From contig NZ_CALEMI010000036.1 of the NCBI RefSeq assembly GCF_937910895.1, positions 1-38,514 on the forward strand: a stretch of DNA of 38,514 nucleotides. The letters run 5' to 3'. This document shows positions 24,569-32,516 of the stretch, piece after piece. Both the position numbers and the translations under genes were made by a program. The notes beneath the pieces are model-generated. The model was not told where the DNA came from. It saw nothing but the letters and a program-made list of their open reading frames with translations, and searched no databases. Numbering within the stretch: position 1 is the stretch's first letter; each line of letters begins with the position of its first letter. Origin of the DNA: an uncultured Dokdonia sp. Lineage in GTDB: Bacteria; Bacteroidota; Bacteroidia; Flavobacteriales; Flavobacteriaceae.

Positions 24569-24838
24569 TTATTTTCTAATACCTAATTCTTTAATAATAG
24601 CACGGTATCTTAAAACGTCTTTCTTGATTAAATAATCAAGAAGCGAACGACGCTTTCCTACGAGCATTACTAACGAGCGCTCTGTATTATAATCTTTACG
24701 ATTATTTTTAAGATGTCCAGTTAGGTGATTGATACGGTGTGTAAACAATGCGATTTGCCCTTCAGCAGATCCAGTATCATTTTTTCCTTTACCGTGTTTT
24801 TCGAAAAGTTCTTCTTTTCCTTCTTTTGTTAAATACAT
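24569..24838 (-). CDS. rpsO: 30S ribosomal protein S15
   Basis: 89 aa, the standard S15 length. Seen: TGSAEGQIALFTHRINHLTGHLKNNRKDYNTERSL, split by the family into the 16S rRNA-contacting helices, then VGKRRSLLDYL and the C-terminal YRAIIKELGIRK. It binds the 16S central domain early in 30S assembly. It has its own promoter (-7 box at 24892-24899) and its own terminator, and is followed by pnp as in many bacteria. Confidence 0.98.
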   Translation of the reverse strand: MYLTKEGKEELFEKHGKGKNDTGSAEGQIALFTHRINHLTGHLKNNRKDYNTERSLVMLVGKRRSLLDYLIKKDVLRYRAIIKELGIRK

Positions 24839-24870
24839 TCCAATATTATTTAAATGATTTTTATGTATAT

Positions 24871-24885
24871 GATAGACCGTCTATC
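24871..24885. promoter_or_regulatory. Inverted repeat at the rpsO transcription start
   Basis: GATAGAC-C-GTCTATC, 7-bp arms with a 1-nt centre, directly downstream of the rpsO -7 box and so at or just after the predicted transcript start. It could be an operator or a leader hairpin; S15 autoregulates through its leader in other bacteria. Confidence 0.4.
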
Positions 24886-24891
24886 AGCGTG

Positions 24892-24899
24892 CAAAGATA
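24892..24899 (-). promoter_or_regulatory. -7 box of the rpsO promoter
   Basis: TATCTTTG on the minus strand fits the Bacteroidota TAnnTTTG element. The -33 region is only a T-rich run. Confidence 0.5.
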
Positions 24900-27140: not shown

Positions 27141-28034
27141 TTAGGTTGTTAATTCCGTAAACAAGCTTTCCAAACTCGCATTCTTTTGATTAAGTTGTAA
27201 AATTTTAAGCTCATTATCATGAGCAAAGTCAAATACTTTTGAGCGCATATCTTCTTGTGTGCTAAACGTGATCTCATATATAAAGTCATGCGTGTTCTTT
27301 ACAGAAGCTACTTTTTCTAAGCGTTCCAAAGCAACTGTTTCTACTCGGTAATCAAATTCTACAATTACTTTTTGTTGTTGTCCTTCTCTAAGATCTTGAA
27401 GTTTTTTGTCTGCAACAATTTTTCCTTTATTGATAATAATTACCCGATCACATATCGCCTCTACTTCTTGCATGATGTGCGTACTCATTAATATCGTTTT
27501 TTCTTTTCCTATAGATTTGATAAGTCCTCTTATTTCTAATAATTGGTTAGGATCAAGTCCTGTGGTAGGCTCATCTAATATCAAGACTTCTGGATCGTGT
27601 AATAAGGCATTGGCAAGTCCGACGCGTTGTCTATATCCTTTGGAGAGTTGTCCTATTTTTTTATGTGCCTCTGTAGTGAGTCCTGTAAGTTGGATGACTT
27701 CTTCTATACGCTCTTTTGGCGTTTTGTGTACTTGTGCATTAAAAGCAAGGTACTCTCGCACATACATTTCTAGGTATAAAGGATTGTGTTCTGGCAAATA
27801 TCCTACAGATTTACGTACGTCTTGAGTGTTTTTTATCGTGTCATAACTATTTACAGAAGCGGTTCCTTCAGAAGGGGTAAGGTAGGTAGTTAAAATCTTC
27901 ATCATCGTGCTTTTTCCAGCACCATTGGGACCTAAGAAACCAACAATTTCACCTTTCTTTAATGTAAAGGAAACGCTGTCTAATGCTTTTTGAACTTCAT
28001 ACGTTTTTGTAATATTTTTGACAACGATAGACAT
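27141..28034 (-). CDS. gldA: Gliding-motility ABC transporter ATPase GldA
   Basis: 297 aa. ABC ATPase with Walker A GPNGAGKST (about 36-44), Q-loop region GYLPEHNPLY, signature LSKGYRQRVG, Walker B VLILDEPTTGLD and the switch His in STH. The wording SVGYLPEHNPLYLEMYVREYLAFNA and the C-terminal about 80-residue extension agree with GldA of Flavobacterium. In that genus GldA works with GldF and GldG in an inner-membrane complex needed for gliding; neither is in this window, as is common. Other ABC-2 type ATPases are the alternative. It is divergent from the aromatic operon. Confidence 0.88.
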   Translation of the reverse strand: MSIVVKNITKTYEVQKALDSVSFTLKKGEIVGFLGPNGAGKSTMMKILTTYLTPSEGTASVNSYDTIKNTQDVRKSVGYLPEHNPLYLEMYVREYLAFNAQVHKTPKERIEEVIQLTGLTTEAHKKIGQLSKGYRQRVGLANALLHDPEVLILDEPTTGLDPNQLLEIRGLIKSIGKEKTILMSTHIMQEVEAICDRVIIINKGKIVADKKLQDLREGQQQKVIVEFDYRVETVALERLEKVASVKNTHDFIYEITFSTQEDMRSKVFDFAHDNELKILQLNQKNASLESLFTELTT

Positions 28035-28172: not shown

Positions 28173-28202
28173 TTGCTAACCTTACTTTTTTTTCTATTTT
28201 TA
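28173..28202 (+). promoter_or_regulatory. Promoter of the aromatic amino acid operon
   Basis: TTG (28173-28175), a 19-bp spacer, then TATTTTTA (28195-28202), close to the TTG-N19-TAnnTTTG consensus. The predicted start near 28209 lies 13 nt before the leader peptide ATG. Confidence 0.65.
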
Positions 28203-28221
28203 ATCCCATAACAAATTCATA

Positions 28222-28296
28222 ATGTTTACAAACGTTTATTACTGGAACAATTATTTCTTTTTCTTCGGGCTGAAGAAATCGGGACGGTTACGGTGA
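28222..28296 (+). CDS. Aromatic amino acid leader peptide (24 aa)
   Basis: A short ORF, ATG at 28222 to TGA at 28294-28296. It encodes MFTNVYYWNNYFFFF followed by GLKKSGRLR. Nine of 24 residues are aromatic: five Phe (four in a row at positions 12-15), three Tyr and one Trp. It stands directly behind a good promoter and before an intrinsic terminator, 258 bp ahead of pheA. This is the layout of a ribosome-mediated attenuation leader like enterobacterial pheL, where scarcity of charged tRNA stalls the ribosome at the aromatic codons. The four Phe codons (28255-28266) form the ascending arm of the first hairpin. The recognition is from sequence logic; no homologue was compared. Confidence 0.8.
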   Translation: MFTNVYYWNNYFFFFGLKKSGRLR

Positions 28297-28350
28297 TAAA
28301 TAACACTCAAAAACTCTTTAAAGTCCTGATGTAATTATTAGGACTTTTTT
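28260..28350 (+). promoter_or_regulatory. Attenuator with mutually exclusive hairpins
   Basis: Three structures can be drawn. Pause hairpin: TTTCTTC (28260-28266) with GAAGAAA (28272-28278). Antiterminator: ATCGGGAC (28278-28285) with GTCCTGAT (28323-28330), 8 bp with one G-T pair. Terminator: AAAGTCCT (28320-28327) with AGGACTTT (28340-28347), followed by T-rich sequence. The last two share 28323-28327 and exclude each other. A ribosome stalled on the Phe codons leaves the antiterminator strand free, whereas one reaching the stop codon at 28294 covers it. Confidence 0.75.
28320..28350 (+). terminator. Attenuator terminator
   Basis: 8-bp stem AAAGTCCT/AGGACTTT, loop of 12 nt, then TTTTTTTG beginning inside the stem end. 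It lies 200 bp before pheA with no gene ending upstream of it on this strand, which marks it as regulatory. Confidence 0.8.
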
Positions 28351-28463
28351 TGTTTTAAGAAATTCTAACGAAATGGGAGTTTTACAAAGACTAGTGTAAT
28401 TTTGATCATTGAGTGAATTGTTTAAAAAATAAGTTTAAAAATAAGATTCTTGCTTTCGAGATA

Positions 28464-28556
28464 AAAGTCGATTGTGGGATGAGATTTCCGCCTTCGCGGG
28501 AATAAAATGAAAGTCGGATGTTGGGAATGAGATTCCCGTCTCCGCGGGAATTTATG
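28464..28556 (+). repeat. Two tandem hairpin repeats abutting the pheA start
   Basis: Unit 1 about 28464-28509 and unit 2 about 28510-28556 share AAAGTCG, a GGGA(A)TGAGATT block and a hairpin: TTTCCGC/GCGGGAA at 28485-28502, and ATTCCCG/CGGGAAT at 28532-28551. The second hairpin ends two bases before the pheA ATG (28554). A related unit precedes pnp. Confidence 0.8.
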
Positions 28557-29372
28557 AAAATAGCAATTCAAGGCGTAAAAGGATCTTTCCATCATAAAGT
28601 AGCTCAAGAGTTTTTTGAGACAGAAGTACCTGTGATAGAATGTATGTCTTTCCCAGTGCTAGTAGATCAGTTAGTTGCTGGAAATGCTACAGCAGCTGTG
28701 ATGGCTATAGAAAACTCTATAGCAGGAGCTATTCTCCCTAACTATGCACTCATAGATCAACATCAACTTACGATAGAAGGAGAGTTTTATCTAGATGTAC
28801 AACACCATCTTATGGGATTGTCTGGACAGGAAATAACCGATATTAAAGAGGTGTGGTCACATCCTATGGCGCTTATTCAATGTCGCAAATTTCTAGCACA
28901 ATACCCTTCTATCAAATTAGTAGAAGCTACAGATACTGCAGCTGTAGCTCGTCAAATTCAAGAAGAAAATCTTACAGGCATTGCTGCTATTGCAAGTGCT
29001 ACAGCCGCTCAAATTTATGACTTACACATTATAGCTCCTCAAATACAAACCATTAAGCATAATGAGACACGCTTTTTTATTTTAAGCACAAAAGAAAAAC
29101 AAATTAGTACAGATTGCAATAAGGCTTCGGTTTGCTTTACCGCAGACCATAAACGAGGCAGTCTCGCAACGATTCTCAATGTGCTGAGTGATTGCAAACT
29201 CAATTTAACCAAAATACAATCTATGCCAGTTATAGAAACACCTTGGCGATATGCGTTTTTTGTAGATGTTACTTTTAATGCGTATAGTGATTATGAAAAA
29301 GCAAAAAAGGTATTAGCTATTATGTCTACAGATTTTAAAGTATTGGGAGAATATAACAATAGGAAGCGATGA
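28554..29372 (+). CDS. pheA: Prephenate dehydratase
   Basis: 272 aa from MKIAIQGVKGSFHHKVAQEFF at 28554; the in-frame ATG at 28518 would translate the hairpin repeat. It converts prephenate to phenylpyruvate. Seen: the GVKGSFH substrate loop, IENSIAGAI, the HNETRFFIL catalytic TRF motif near residue 172 and a C-terminal ACT domain (GSLATILNVLSDCKLNLTKIQSMP) for feedback by Phe. No chorismate mutase is fused; that activity sits in the last gene of the operon. The stop overlaps the next ATG by 4 bp. Confidence 0.95.
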   Translation: MKIAIQGVKGSFHHKVAQEFFETEVPVIECMSFPVLVDQLVAGNATAAVMAIENSIAGAILPNYALIDQHQLTIEGEFYLDVQHHLMGLSGQEITDIKEVWSHPMALIQCRKFLAQYPSIKLVEATDTAAVARQIQEENLTGIAAIASATAAQIYDLHIIAPQIQTIKHNETRFFILSTKEKQISTDCNKASVCFTADHKRGSLATILNVLSDCKLNLTKIQSMPVIETPWRYAFFVDVTFNAYSDYEKAKKVLAIMSTDFKVLGEYNNRKR

Positions 29373-30511
29373 TACAACCAGCAAATAGATTACAGGAAAC
29401 CAAGGAGTATTACTTTTCGCGTAAGCTTAAAGAAGTTCGTGCCCTAGAAGCGGCTGGACATCCTATCATAAATATGGGCATTGGAAGCCCAGATGTAGCC
29501 GCTCCTACAGCAGTGGTAGAAGCCTTGAAAAAAGGACTAGAAAACCCTAGAGCGCACCAATATCAGAGTTATACAGGCATTCCTGAGTTGAGAGAAGCGA
29601 TGGTAGATTTTTATAAAAAGCACTATCAAGTAACGGTAGATCCAGCGACCGAGGTACTGCCTTTAATGGGGTCTAAAGAAGGGATCATGCACATTAGTAT
29701 GGCGTTTCTCAATCCAGGTGATAAGGTGTTGATTCCTAATCCTGGCTATCCTACATACAGCGCTGTGACAAAGTTGGTCGAAGCCATTCCTGTTTTTTAT
29801 GATTTAGATGCAGATCATCACTGGTTACCAGATCTTAAAGCGTTGCAGCAACAGGACCTGAGTCAGGTAAAAATGATGTGGGTTAATTATCCGCACATGC
29901 CTACAGGAGCCACTGTTCAGGAAGGTTTTTTTGAAGAATTAATCGCTTTCGCGAAAGCGAACCACATCCTCATCATAAATGACAACCCGTATAGTTTTAT
30001 TCTCAATGATCACCCAACTTCCATCCTCGCTTTTGAAGGTGCCAAAGAAGTAGCTTTAGAACTCAATTCGTTAAGTAAGAGTTTTAATATGGCTGGTTGG
30101 CGTGTCGGAATGGTAATGGGTGATAAAACGCATATTAATCATATCTTAAAGGTAAAGTCAAACATGGACAGCGGGATGTTTTATGGGATTCAACAAGGCG
30201 CTATTGCTGCTTTGCAACTCGATCCATCATGGTTTGTAACTATTAATGAGGTGTATAGAAAGCGTCGTGATCTTATCTATACACTGGTAAAAAAGTTAGG
30301 GTGTACCTACTCAGAAGACAGTGTAGGACTTTTTGTGTGGGCAAAGCTTCCTGAGGGGATTGATGCAGAACAGTTTATAGATAGAATACTCGTAGAAAAA
30401 TATGTATTTATAACTCCAGGAACTATATTTGGAACTCAAGGAGAAGGGTATATCCGTTTTAGTTTGTGTGTTACAGAAGACCAAATAAGAAATGCTATTG
30501 ACCGATTTTAA
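29369..30511 (+). CDS. Class I/II aminotransferase of the aromatic operon
   Basis: 380 aa. PLP-dependent fold type I: the N-terminal INMGIGSPDVAAP, the PNPGYPTYSAV loop and the PLP lysine Lys237 in SLSKSFNMAGWRVG are visible, as is the C-terminal Arg region GYIRFSLC. Its place between pheA and tyrA suggests the final transamination of phenylpyruvate and 4-hydroxyphenylpyruvate. Family resemblance to LL-diaminopimelate aminotransferase-like enzymes means other substrates are possible. Two unusual residues are MP in YPHMPTGA, where NPTG is normal. The dispersed palindrome (29945-29958) lies inside the gene and encodes AFAKA. Confidence 0.88.
   Translation: MIQPANRLQETKEYYFSRKLKEVRALEAAGHPIINMGIGSPDVAAPTAVVEALKKGLENPRAHQYQSYTGIPELREAMVDFYKKHYQVTVDPATEVLPLMGSKEGIMHISMAFLNPGDKVLIPNPGYPTYSAVTKLVEAIPVFYDLDADHHWLPDLKALQQQDLSQVKMMWVNYPHMPTGATVQEGFFEELIAFAKANHILIINDNPYSFILNDHPTSILAFEGAKEVALELNSLSKSFNMAGWRVGMVMGDKTHINHILKVKSNMDSGMFYGIQQGAIAALQLDPSWFVTINEVYRKRRDLIYTLVKKLGCTYSEDSVGLFVWAKLPEGIDAEQFIDRILVEKYVFITPGTIFGTQGEGYIRFSLCVTEDQIRNAIDRF
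29945..29958. repeat. GCTTTCGCGAAAGC palindrome inside the aminotransferase gene
   Basis: Intact copy, read in frame as GCT TTC GCG AAA GC(G). The reading phase differs from the copy in dtd. Confidence 0.95.
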
Positions 30512-30550: not shown

Positions 30551-31402
30551 TTGGAAAAAATTTACATCATAGGAATAGGATTGATTGGAGGCTCTTTTGC
30601 GAGGGATTTGAGAAGACTATATCCTAAAGCCCAGATTTTCGGAATAGATACAACTCCTGAGCATATTGCTGAAGCTATAAAAATAGGATTGATTGATGCC
30701 GAAGCTACGATCACATCTATAGAGGCTGCAGATCTAGTCGTGCTTTCTATTCCTGTAGATATTGCCGTAAAGGTACTTCCAGAAGTGTTAGATCATATAG
30801 GGGATCAAACGTTGGTTATGGATATGGGATCTACCAAAGCATCTATTTGTGCTGGTGTAGCTACCCATGAGAAACGACGGAATTTTCTAGCCTGCCATCC
30901 TATTGCTGGTACAGAATTTTCAGGACCCATGGCAGCTATAGAAGGCCTTTACATAGGAAAAACAAATATAATTTGTGAAGTGGAGAAAACTAGTTTTAAA
31001 CTTCAAGAAAAGGCGTTACACTTATTTACATCTATAGGAATGCGTATTCGATATATGGATCCTGTATCTCATGATAAGCATATAGCCTACGTATCTCATT
31101 TATCACATATAAGTGCCTTTATGCTAGGAAAAACAGTAATCAATAAAGAAAAAAACGAACGCGACATTTTTGATATGGCAGGAAGTGGTTTTGCATCCAC
31201 AGTACGATTAGCAAAAAGTAACCCTACTACATGGACCTCCATATTTAAACAAAATAAAGAGAATATTTTAGAGACGCTAGATGAGTATATCACCAACCTA
31301 GCGCATTTTAAAGAATTAATGCAAGAAGACGACTTTAACGGGGTGTACCAAGAAATGGAAAATACCAATCATATTAAAGAAATATTAAAAGGAATAGAAT
31401 AA
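30551..31402 (+). CDS. tyrA: Prephenate dehydrogenase
   Basis: 283 aa from a TTG start (30551), which places the Rossmann motif IIGIGLIGGSFA (residues 5-16) at the very N-terminus as usual. It oxidises prephenate to 4-hydroxyphenylpyruvate with NAD(P)+. Seen: VLSIPVD, MDMGSTKASI, the catalytic HPIAGTEFSGP, then SHLSHISAFML and GSGFASTVRLA of the all-helical domain. No ACT or chorismate mutase domain is fused. It lies third in the aromatic operon. Confidence 0.95.
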   Translation: MEKIYIIGIGLIGGSFARDLRRLYPKAQIFGIDTTPEHIAEAIKIGLIDAEATITSIEAADLVVLSIPVDIAVKVLPEVLDHIGDQTLVMDMGSTKASICAGVATHEKRRNFLACHPIAGTEFSGPMAAIEGLYIGKTNIICEVEKTSFKLQEKALHLFTSIGMRIRYMDPVSHDKHIAYVSHLSHISAFMLGKTVINKEKNERDIFDMAGSGFASTVRLAKSNPTTWTSIFKQNKENILETLDEYITNLAHFKELMQEDDFNGVYQEMENTNHIKEILKGIE

Positions 31403-31430: not shown

Positions 31431-32516
31431 ATGGAAAATAAAAAAGAACTTAGAAATTGGTTAGATGCCTTTAACTTGGATCACCCACTTGTAATAGCAG
31501 GGCCTTGTAGCGCAGAAACAGAAGCACAGGTTTTAAAAATTGCACACCAACTTAAAGATACAGATGCTACTGTTTTAAGAGCGGGTATTTGGAAACCTCG
31601 TACACGTCCTGGTAATTTTGAAGGGGTAGGTGCTTTAGGATTAAAGTGGCTTCAAAAAGCAAAAGAAGAAACAGGAATGCTGACCACTACAGAGGTGGCA
31701 AATGCAAACCACGTAGAATTAGCGCTAGCACATGATGTAGATATTTTATGGATTGGGGCACGTACCACAGTATCTCCTTTTATTGTCCAAGACATCGCAG
31801 ATGCGTTAAGAGGAACAGACAAAACCATACTGATTAAGAACCCAGTGAATCCAGATTTATCTCTTTGGTTGGGAGCTGTAGAGCGTTTTTATACAGCAGA
31901 TATTCAAAATCTAGGTGTGATTCATAGAGGATTTTCTACCTATGAAAAAACACGTTACAGAAATAATCCAGAATGGCAAATAGCGATTGACTTACAAAAT
32001 CGTTTTCCAGATCTTCCGCTAATTTTAGATCCATCTCATATAGCGGGACGTCGGGATATTATTCATGACCTGAGCCAGACAGCTTTAGATCTAAATTATG
32101 ACGGATTAATGGTAGAGACCCATTATGATCCAGATAATGCTTGGAGTGATGCGGCACAGCAAATTACACCAGATACTCTCATTAAGATGATGGTTGATCT
32201 TAAAATAAGAAAGACAGAAGGCAATGAGATTGAATATAAAAACAAACTTAATACGTTACGTACCCAGATAGATGTCGTAGATCATCAACTGATTGAATCG
32301 CTCGGAAAGCGTATGAAAATTGCAGATCAAATAGGACATCTCAAAAGCGATAATAATGTAGCGATACTACAAACAAAACGTTGGAATGAGATTCTAGGAA
32401 AAATGATTCTTGAAGGAGAGCAACATAATCTAAGTGAAGAGTTTATTCTTAGAGTATTTAAAGCAGTACACCAAGAGTCTATTAATCACCAACAGAAAAT
32501 AGCACTTTCTAAATAA
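31431..32516 (+). CDS. Bifunctional DAHP synthase / chorismate mutase
   Basis: 361 aa. The N-terminal about 255 residues are a DAHP synthase of the KdsA-like AroA family: AGPCSAET (metal and PEP site), LRAGIWKPRTRPGNFEG, WIGARTT, LIKNPVNPD, VIHRGFST, DPSHIAGRR and METHYDP. The C-terminal about 90 residues are an AroQ-type chorismate mutase (LRTQIDVVDHQLIESLGKRMKIADQIGHLK, ILQTKRWNEIL). It supplies the first step of the shikimate route and the chorismate to prephenate step feeding pheA and tyrA. In this enzyme type the mutase domain is known to mediate feedback inhibition. It is the last gene of the operon. Confidence 0.95.
   Translation: MENKKELRNWLDAFNLDHPLVIAGPCSAETEAQVLKIAHQLKDTDATVLRAGIWKPRTRPGNFEGVGALGLKWLQKAKEETGMLTTTEVANANHVELALAHDVDILWIGARTTVSPFIVQDIADALRGTDKTILIKNPVNPDLSLWLGAVERFYTADIQNLGVIHRGFSTYEKTRYRNNPEWQIAIDLQNRFPDLPLILDPSHIAGRRDIIHDLSQTALDLNYDGLMVETHYDPDNAWSDAAQQITPDTLIKMMVDLKIRKTEGNEIEYKNKLNTLRTQIDVVDHQLIESLGKRMKIADQIGHLKSDNNVAILQTKRWNEILGKMILEGEQHNLSEEFILRVFKAVHQESINHQQKIALSK

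Follow-up and report, generated by a model that had tools for sequence, protein, structure and literature searches.

A conserved leader-peptide attenuator predicted ahead of the pheA operon in Dokdonia and other Bacteroidia

Introduction

What controls the pheA operon of Dokdonia, and does the short open reading frame (ORF) that precedes it act as a sensor of aromatic amino acids? The question is raised by the window analyzed here, a 38,514-nucleotide stretch of DNA from an uncultured Dokdonia sp. Ribosome-mediated leader-peptide attenuation, first worked out in Escherichia coli, is a classical mode of control, and classical attenuators need a ribosome that closely trails RNA polymerase. Attenuators of this kind are said to have been predicted in some Bacteroidetes by Vitreschak et al. 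in 2004.

Other traces exist in the phylum. The main text of PMC9723704 describes strong clues for leader-peptide attenuation before amino acid operons of Flavobacterium psychrophilum, together with a structured 5' element upstream of pheA, named in 2021, whose conservation extends to other genera of the Flavobacteriaceae and for which Rfam gives no hit. Short ORFs reminiscent of leader peptides are mentioned for Bacteroides thetaiotaomicron in PMC7366714, and a Bacteroid-trp motif is listed in PMC2864571.

Results

The pheA operon and its leader ORF

Judged by their sequences, the four genes downstream of the leader look like a route to phenylalanine and tyrosine (Table 1); among the matches listed, only the prephenate dehydrogenase passes its curated NCBIfam cutoff. 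The best named pheA relatives of the window are Dokdonia loci, with 84 to 85% identity, and sequence places the genome close to Dokdonia (Flavobacteriaceae). Divergent from the operon, on the minus strand at 27141-28034, lies gldA, which encodes the ATP-binding subunit of the gliding-motility ABC transporter (TIGR03522, 469.2 bits).

Table 1. Features of the pheA leader and operon, in window coordinates
Feature	Position	Strand	Remarks
Putative -7 promoter element TATTTTTA	28195..28202	+	TTG at 28173-28175 as a possible -33 element
Leader peptide ORF, MFTNVYYWNNYFFFFGLKKSGRLR	28222..28296	+	Counterpart in 127/140 pheA upstreams, window included; codon-level constraint
Predicted early (pause or 1:2) hairpin over control codons and antiterminator 5' arm	28234..28301	+	Folding, z -2.7 for 28222-28322
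Four consecutive Phe codons, the last control codons	28255..28266	+	
Antiterminator 5' arm ATCGGGAC	28278..28285	+	Within the 3' part of the leader ORF
Intrinsic terminator stem-loop, then T tract	28320..28347	+	12 pairs, 4-nt loop; covariation
Antiterminator 3' arm, equal to terminator 5' arm, GTCCTGAT	28323..28330	+	
Two copies of a tandem repeat with palindrome, not part of the switch	28476..28551	+	Between terminator and pheA
pheA, prephenate dehydratase (regulated gene 1)	28554..29372	+	PRK11898, 199.6 bits, under curated cutoff of 219
Aminotransferase, LL-DAP/aspartate aminotransferase type (regulated gene 2)	29369..30511	+	No curated cutoff reached among the 25 of 70 families listed
tyrA, prephenate dehydrogenase (regulated gene 3)	30551..31402	+	PRK08507, 374.2 bits, cutoff 295; TTG start per ORF tool
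DAHP synthase fused to chorismate mutase domain (regulated gene 4)	31431..32516	+	PRK08673, 193.5 of 335, and PRK12595, 189.8 of 279, both under curated cutoffs

A sequence-only reading of the window had proposed a 24-codon ORF ahead of pheA with nine aromatic codons, including four consecutive Phe codons. Such an ORF is present, with its aromatic codons at F2, Y6, Y7, W8, Y11, and F12 to F15 and its stop codon at 28294-28296. A short ORF rich in codons for the product of the operon that follows is what an attenuator calls for. For the ATG-initiated leaders from 77 named loci, 0 to 16 of 100 shuffles per locus attained the aromatic score of the respective leader; for the window the figure was 0 of 100. 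On its own, the leader ORF says less than ORF and terminator taken together.

Beyond the leader ORF, 23 nt past its end, begins the stem of an intrinsic terminator, placed as in an attenuator between the ORF and the first gene. The upstream ATCGGGAC forms 8 bp with GTCCTGAT, including one G-U pair. Because 28323-28330 belongs to the 5' arm of the terminator, terminator and antiterminator exclude each other, and the proposal of an intrinsic terminator excluded by an 8-bp antiterminator is borne out in both its parts. The pause hairpin suggested over the aromatic codons is predicted by folding as well: 28260-28266, within the Phe codons, would pair with 28272-28278, inside an outer stem of 28234-28244 with 28291-28301. 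The fold of the whole leader has a z score of -4.1 and was equaled in stability by 0 of 200 shuffles.

The leader is conserved among relatives

We judged 140 pheA upstreams, comprising the window, 79 named loci, and 60 upstreams from the order. The named loci are the best 80 of 114 relatives, with L065, whose contig ends 47 nt upstream, dropped from all counts; the order-level upstreams, from 60 genomes, were taken out of 120 matches that included the window's own genome. An upstream passed if it held an aromatic-rich mini-ORF of 12 to 32 codons followed by a terminator. This was so in 127 of the 140 upstreams, window included, against 12 of 1,400 dinucleotide shuffles, and in 5 of 1,752 other 450-nt windows of the named loci. 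A stricter cut left 124 upstreams, with 1 of 1,400 shuffles and 0 of 1,752 other windows. The combination of ORF and terminator is far beyond chance. Leaders start with ATG in 125 of 127 cases and with GTG in 2.

Outside the order but within the class, 28 matches were available, of which 27 were used (G302, whose match began at residue 47, was left out). Here 18 of 27 pheA upstreams pass, compared with 1 of 540 shuffles, and under the stricter cut 12 of 27 compared with 0 of 540. The 13 of 140 upstreams in which no leader was found (L126, L127, L132, and L137-L146) fall into three family-level groups, f4 with eight, f15 with four, and f11 with one. PheA of f4 is distant, at 31 to 35% identity with one member at 45%, and f15 consists of tiny genomes of 0.3 to 0.6 Mb.

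Phe and Tyr codons are kept, Trp codons less so

Phe and Tyr codons occur in all 127 leaders and Trp codons in 58. Where Phe or Tyr codons differ by a single base, 32 of 36 changes stay aromatic; uniform random changes would be expected to do so in 8 of 36, a figure that transition bias would raise. Conserved aromatic codons were one check that the sequence-only reading had proposed, and it came out in favor. In 46 disjoint pairs of nearest leaders, differences by codon position number 40, 56, and 97. Over the whole run, however, replacements (95 codons) outnumber silent changes (56) between nearest leaders, which counts against codon constraint; aromatic codons take part in 38 replacements, 21 of which exchange one aromatic residue for another and 17 of which change class.

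It had also been proposed that one leader would sense Phe, Tyr, and Trp together. The part concerning Phe and Tyr stands, and joint sensing of these two appears well supported by the codons. The part concerning Trp is not well supported, the place of Trp being often taken by Phe or Tyr; from the codons, Trp sensing is possible and not specifically conserved.

Both helices covary, and the antiterminator arm keeps its spacing to the control codons

Covariation was scored in a MAFFT alignment of 63 loci, built without structure (9 of 72 non-redundant references were left out). In the antiterminator, 85.5% of cells are paired, against 27.6 to 44.6% when slid, with 61 two-sided changed cells against 22.0 in shuffles and a covariation score of 0.399 against 0.240. 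In the terminator, 97.3% of cells are paired, with 78 two-sided cells against 15.7 and a covariation score of 0.453 against 0.244. For both helices, 0 of 500 shuffles reached the observed paired cells, two-sided cells, or covariation score, in statistics that ignore shared descent. Two-sided changes fall on 6 of 8 antiterminator pairs and 7 of 9 terminator pairs. The antiterminator count of 6 compares with 5.0 in shuffles, 119 of 500 of which reach it; its further pair types, 14 against 12.6, are reached by 93 of 500, and those of the terminator by 200 of 500. Compensatory changes had been named as a check for the pairings 28278-28285/28323-28330 and 28320-28327/28340-28347, and both helices show them.

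In some lineages all three strands have changed together at the core. Polaribacter has AGTCTCG with AGAGACT and CGAGACT; four loci, at least three of them of genus g2, have AATCCTG with CAGGATT twice; and Aureibaculum (L079) and L124 have AGCCTCG with CGAGGCT twice. An anchored covariation analysis used 122 of the 127 leaders, the divergent L129, L130, and L133-L135 being left out there and in an arm-swap test, and in both the register was chosen for best pairing. When terminator arms were swapped among 98 distinct loci, best pairing fell from 14.4 to 10.9 (sd 0.25), and 0 of 1,000 swaps reached the loci's own value, a comparison that ignores shared descent. In 8 of 10 terminator-core types the own core pairs best; in the two exceptions, both single loci, another core pairs better.

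The antiterminator arm was defined by the best pairing in the stretch from the last aromatic codon to the terminator. So defined, it starts a median of 10 nt after that codon (5 to 95% range, 7 to 13 nt). Relative to the stop codon its place varies widely: the 5 to 95% range of its start is 1 to 27 nt ahead of the ORF end. At 0.05, the antiterminator does not beat shuffles in 17 of 128 loci, E. coli pheL being among the 128. Genera differ in the frame in which the arm is translated: depending on the locus it encodes KSGR, RRDF, or ETGP, and in several loci a TGA stop overlaps it. The arm is therefore kept as RNA. Given the generally known ribosome footprint, such spacing fits a model in which a ribosome at the last control codon stalls just short of the arm and one at the stop codon covers it. 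Pairing, covariation, and spacing together put the antiterminator where an attenuator needs it, within reach of a ribosome at the stop codon and clear of a stalled one.

Folding calculations

For folding calculations, the edge of the stalled ribosome was assumed to lie 9 nt past the last aromatic codon. With the terminator 5' arm just made, the window's antiterminator has a probability of ~1.0 with a stalled ribosome and 0.17 with no ribosome; for a ribosome at the stop codon the calculation counts the arm as covered, which sets the value to 0. Over the 127 loci, the antiterminator exceeds 0.5 at this point in 96 with a stalled ribosome, 98 with none, and 0 with one at the stop codon. The positive control, E. 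coli pheL, gave a stalled-state antiterminator of 0, since its arm, at 8 nt, is counted as covered by an edge of 9. Stall-state folding of this kind is too crude a model to prove the switch by itself.

The antiterminator arm is mostly paired upstream (>0.5) in 120 of 127 loci, yet without a ribosome the antiterminator still wins in 98. In the model, not every locus has an early hairpin that is a strong ground state, and the untranslated state would not terminate uniformly. At equilibrium, the finished RNA favors the terminator in 123 loci with no ribosome, 117 with a stalled one (probability, >0.5), and 127 with one at the stop codon, as does finished E. coli pheL RNA. Equilibrium folding of the finished RNA fails to reproduce the switch, both in the 127 loci and in pheL, which counts against the model. 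Because the finished RNA prefers the terminator even with a stalled ribosome, the attenuation model needs kinetic, cotranscriptional capture.

Promoter region and start-codon context

The putative -7 element, TATTTTTA, starts 27 nt 5' of the leader ATG. A TAnnTTTG-like element is also found in relatives, at a median start of 32 nt ahead of the leader ATG; 70 of 125 have a perfect copy, compared with 4.8% of shuffles. The window's copy matches at only five of six fixed positions, and two other nearby places score equally. The exact pattern TTTG-N17-20-TAnnTTTG has no match at the leader promoter and two elsewhere in the window, where 1.72 are expected. A scan for sigma-70-type promoters gave 9 sites against 3.0 expected and was set aside, since that consensus is, to our knowledge, not the one of Bacteroidetes.

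The context of the start codon is A rich: among 126 leaders, A stands at -3 in 70%, at -6 in 74%, at -11 in 75%, and at -12 in 70%. According to the text of PMC6847099, Flavobacterium lacks Shine-Dalgarno sequences, and an A-rich start context favors initiation there.

A repeat between the terminator and pheA

The distance from the terminator to the first matched pheA codon is 209 nt in the window, against a median of 29. Within it lie the two repeat copies, at 28476-28503 and 28524-28551, spaced by 48 nt, with the palindrome GAGATTCCCG-CGCGGGAAT. The last predicted hairpin, 28530-28553, abuts the pheA ATG (28554), in a stretch with a z score of only -0.84, and the palindrome might hinder pheA translation. 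Among the sister loci of Dokdonia, clear repeat units number two to three in L003 and L004, and there are none in L002 and L005. The window's own genome holds six occurrences of the palindrome pattern, these two copies among them; the genomes of the sisters hold 3 and 11.

Known leader families and other leaders in the genome

At gathering thresholds, an Rfam 15 scan of the window returned only an S15-Flavobacteria ribosomal protein leader (RF03161, 71.3 bits) at 24836-24899 on the minus strand; the pheA leader scored below gathering for RF01859 and RF01692. At an E value of ≤1, a scan of L001, which contains the leader, gave one antisense hit, RsaE, below its threshold.

Three further leaders were picked by eye from listed ORFs of the same genome, without a null. 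Ahead of trpE lies MKNNAVHTWWWNTKQQFS, with Trp codons (WWW; L082, 1310-1367, 0-based start), which matches RF01692, Bacteroid-trp, with 60.8 bits against a gathering score of 49. Ahead of hisG lies MKNNILHHHHFTSIARAR, with His codons (HHHH; L085, 1195-1252, 0-based start), and ahead of ilvD lies MKNQIQNSVSISIPLQE, with Ile, Val, and Leu codons (L084, 1128-1182, 0-based start). A terminator-like hairpin, seen by eye in the sequence, follows each of the three. The control codons fit the operon in all four cases judged, pheA, trpE, hisG, and ilvD; homoserine dehydrogenase was left out of these, its domain lying inside long open frames (829 and 814 amino acids) in which the start of the gene was not reached.

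The E. coli pheL leader (RF01859, Phe_leader) likewise has a Phe-rich leader peptide and a terminator, and by the same calculation its antiterminator arm lies 8 nt after the last Phe codon, against the median of 10 found here. Unlike pheL, the leaders described here mix Phe with Tyr, and that of the window precedes pheA, tyrA, and DAHP synthase together. Bacteroid-trp is also a peptide leader with control codons and a terminator before an amino acid operon, in Bacteroidetes; it differs from the pheA leader in having Trp codons and another sequence, and the pheA leader does not match its model.

Discussion

We regard it as highly likely, from comparative sequence evidence, that the element ahead of pheA is a ribosome-mediated transcription attenuator sensing Phe and Tyr. 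Attenuation by a translating ribosome was what the sequence-only reading had envisaged, and it is supported by the parts of the leader, their conservation, the codon constraint, the covariation of both helices, and the spacing. RNA polymerase would start shortly before 28222, with a ribosome translating the leader peptide behind it. When charged tRNA-Phe or tRNA-Tyr is short, the ribosome would stall at the aromatic codons ending at 28266; its front edge would end just before 28278, and the antiterminator 5' arm would be free. Once 28323-28330 is made, the free arm would pair with it, no terminator would form, and pheA-tyrA-DAHP synthase would be transcribed. When Phe and Tyr are plentiful, the ribosome would reach the stop codon at 28294-28296 and cover 28278-28285, the terminator at 28320-28347 would form, and transcription would end near 28350.

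Could the ORF be a by-product of base composition, ahead of a constitutive terminator or a short independent RNA without regulation? The region is AT rich, T-rich DNA easily yields Phe and Tyr codons, and an equally aromatic ORF turned up in as many as 16 of 100 shuffles of a single locus. The rarity of ORF plus terminator among shuffles (12 of 1,400) and other windows (5 of 1,752) led us to reject a chance T-rich ORF, and the third, antiterminator strand covaries with the terminator, whereas a plain terminator needs no such strand; we hold this explanation to be extremely improbable. A ligand- or tRNA-binding 5' element, a riboswitch or something like a T-box, with the mini-ORF incidental to it, would account for the stable structure (z, -4.1) and for the terminator/antiterminator pair. 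Against it, no Rfam family was matched at gathering score, nor at an E value of ≤1 on the sense strand of L001, and the aromatic codons tend to stay aromatic, and on these two grounds a T-box or riboswitch was rejected. In addition, the feature that is kept is the distance of the arm to the last aromatic codon, and an unsystematic look noticed no conserved aptamer-like block. We consider such an element very improbable.

A variant of the attenuator, not exclusive of sensing Phe and Tyr, is that the leader deliberately senses Trp as well. The window has W8, 58 of 127 leaders have Trp, and the DAHP synthase of the operon serves all three pathways. Trp is nonetheless missing from 69 of 127 leaders, with Phe or Tyr often in its place in related leaders; W8 lies ~32 nt 5' of the antiterminator arm; and a separate Trp leader precedes trpE in the same genome. 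Deliberate Trp sensing seems to us unlikely.

Joint sensing of Phe and Tyr by an attenuator is a case of leader-peptide attenuation, a kind already known, and an element before pheA has already been noted, as the main text of PMC9723704 indicates. The sequence-only reading had offered the existence of the attenuator in this lineage as its own suggestion; the attenuator is supported, but such an element is not unknown there. The two are very probably the same: the published element, like the window's, precedes pheA, has counterparts in other genera, and hits no Rfam family. For this element, the main text of PMC9723704 gives no peptide, antiterminator, or covariation, and it states conservation for the family. 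As far as literature searches show, four findings are new: a defined peptide family, covariation across all three strands, a spacing that hardly varies, and occurrence in much of the class.

Since the leader is carried by 127 of 140 upstreams in or near Flavobacteriales and by 18 of 27 elsewhere in the class, a broader reading suggests itself: a pheA attenuator dependent on transcription-translation coupling would be ancestral to the class Bacteroidia, ribosome and polymerase would be tightly coupled in general, and Phe and Tyr would be sensed jointly by one mixed codon run. We judge the arguments for and against this broader reading to be about evenly balanced. If it is true, tight ribosome-polymerase coupling would be general in a group that lacks Shine-Dalgarno sequences. 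An attenuator kept, with covarying arms and an almost fixed ribosome spacing, across much of a class that initiates without Shine-Dalgarno sequences, as the text of PMC6847099 describes, points to coupling of transcription and translation. A conserved leader with no match in Rfam 15 also gains an annotation, and the analysis predicts how Phe and Tyr synthesis would be controlled in many Bacteroidota.
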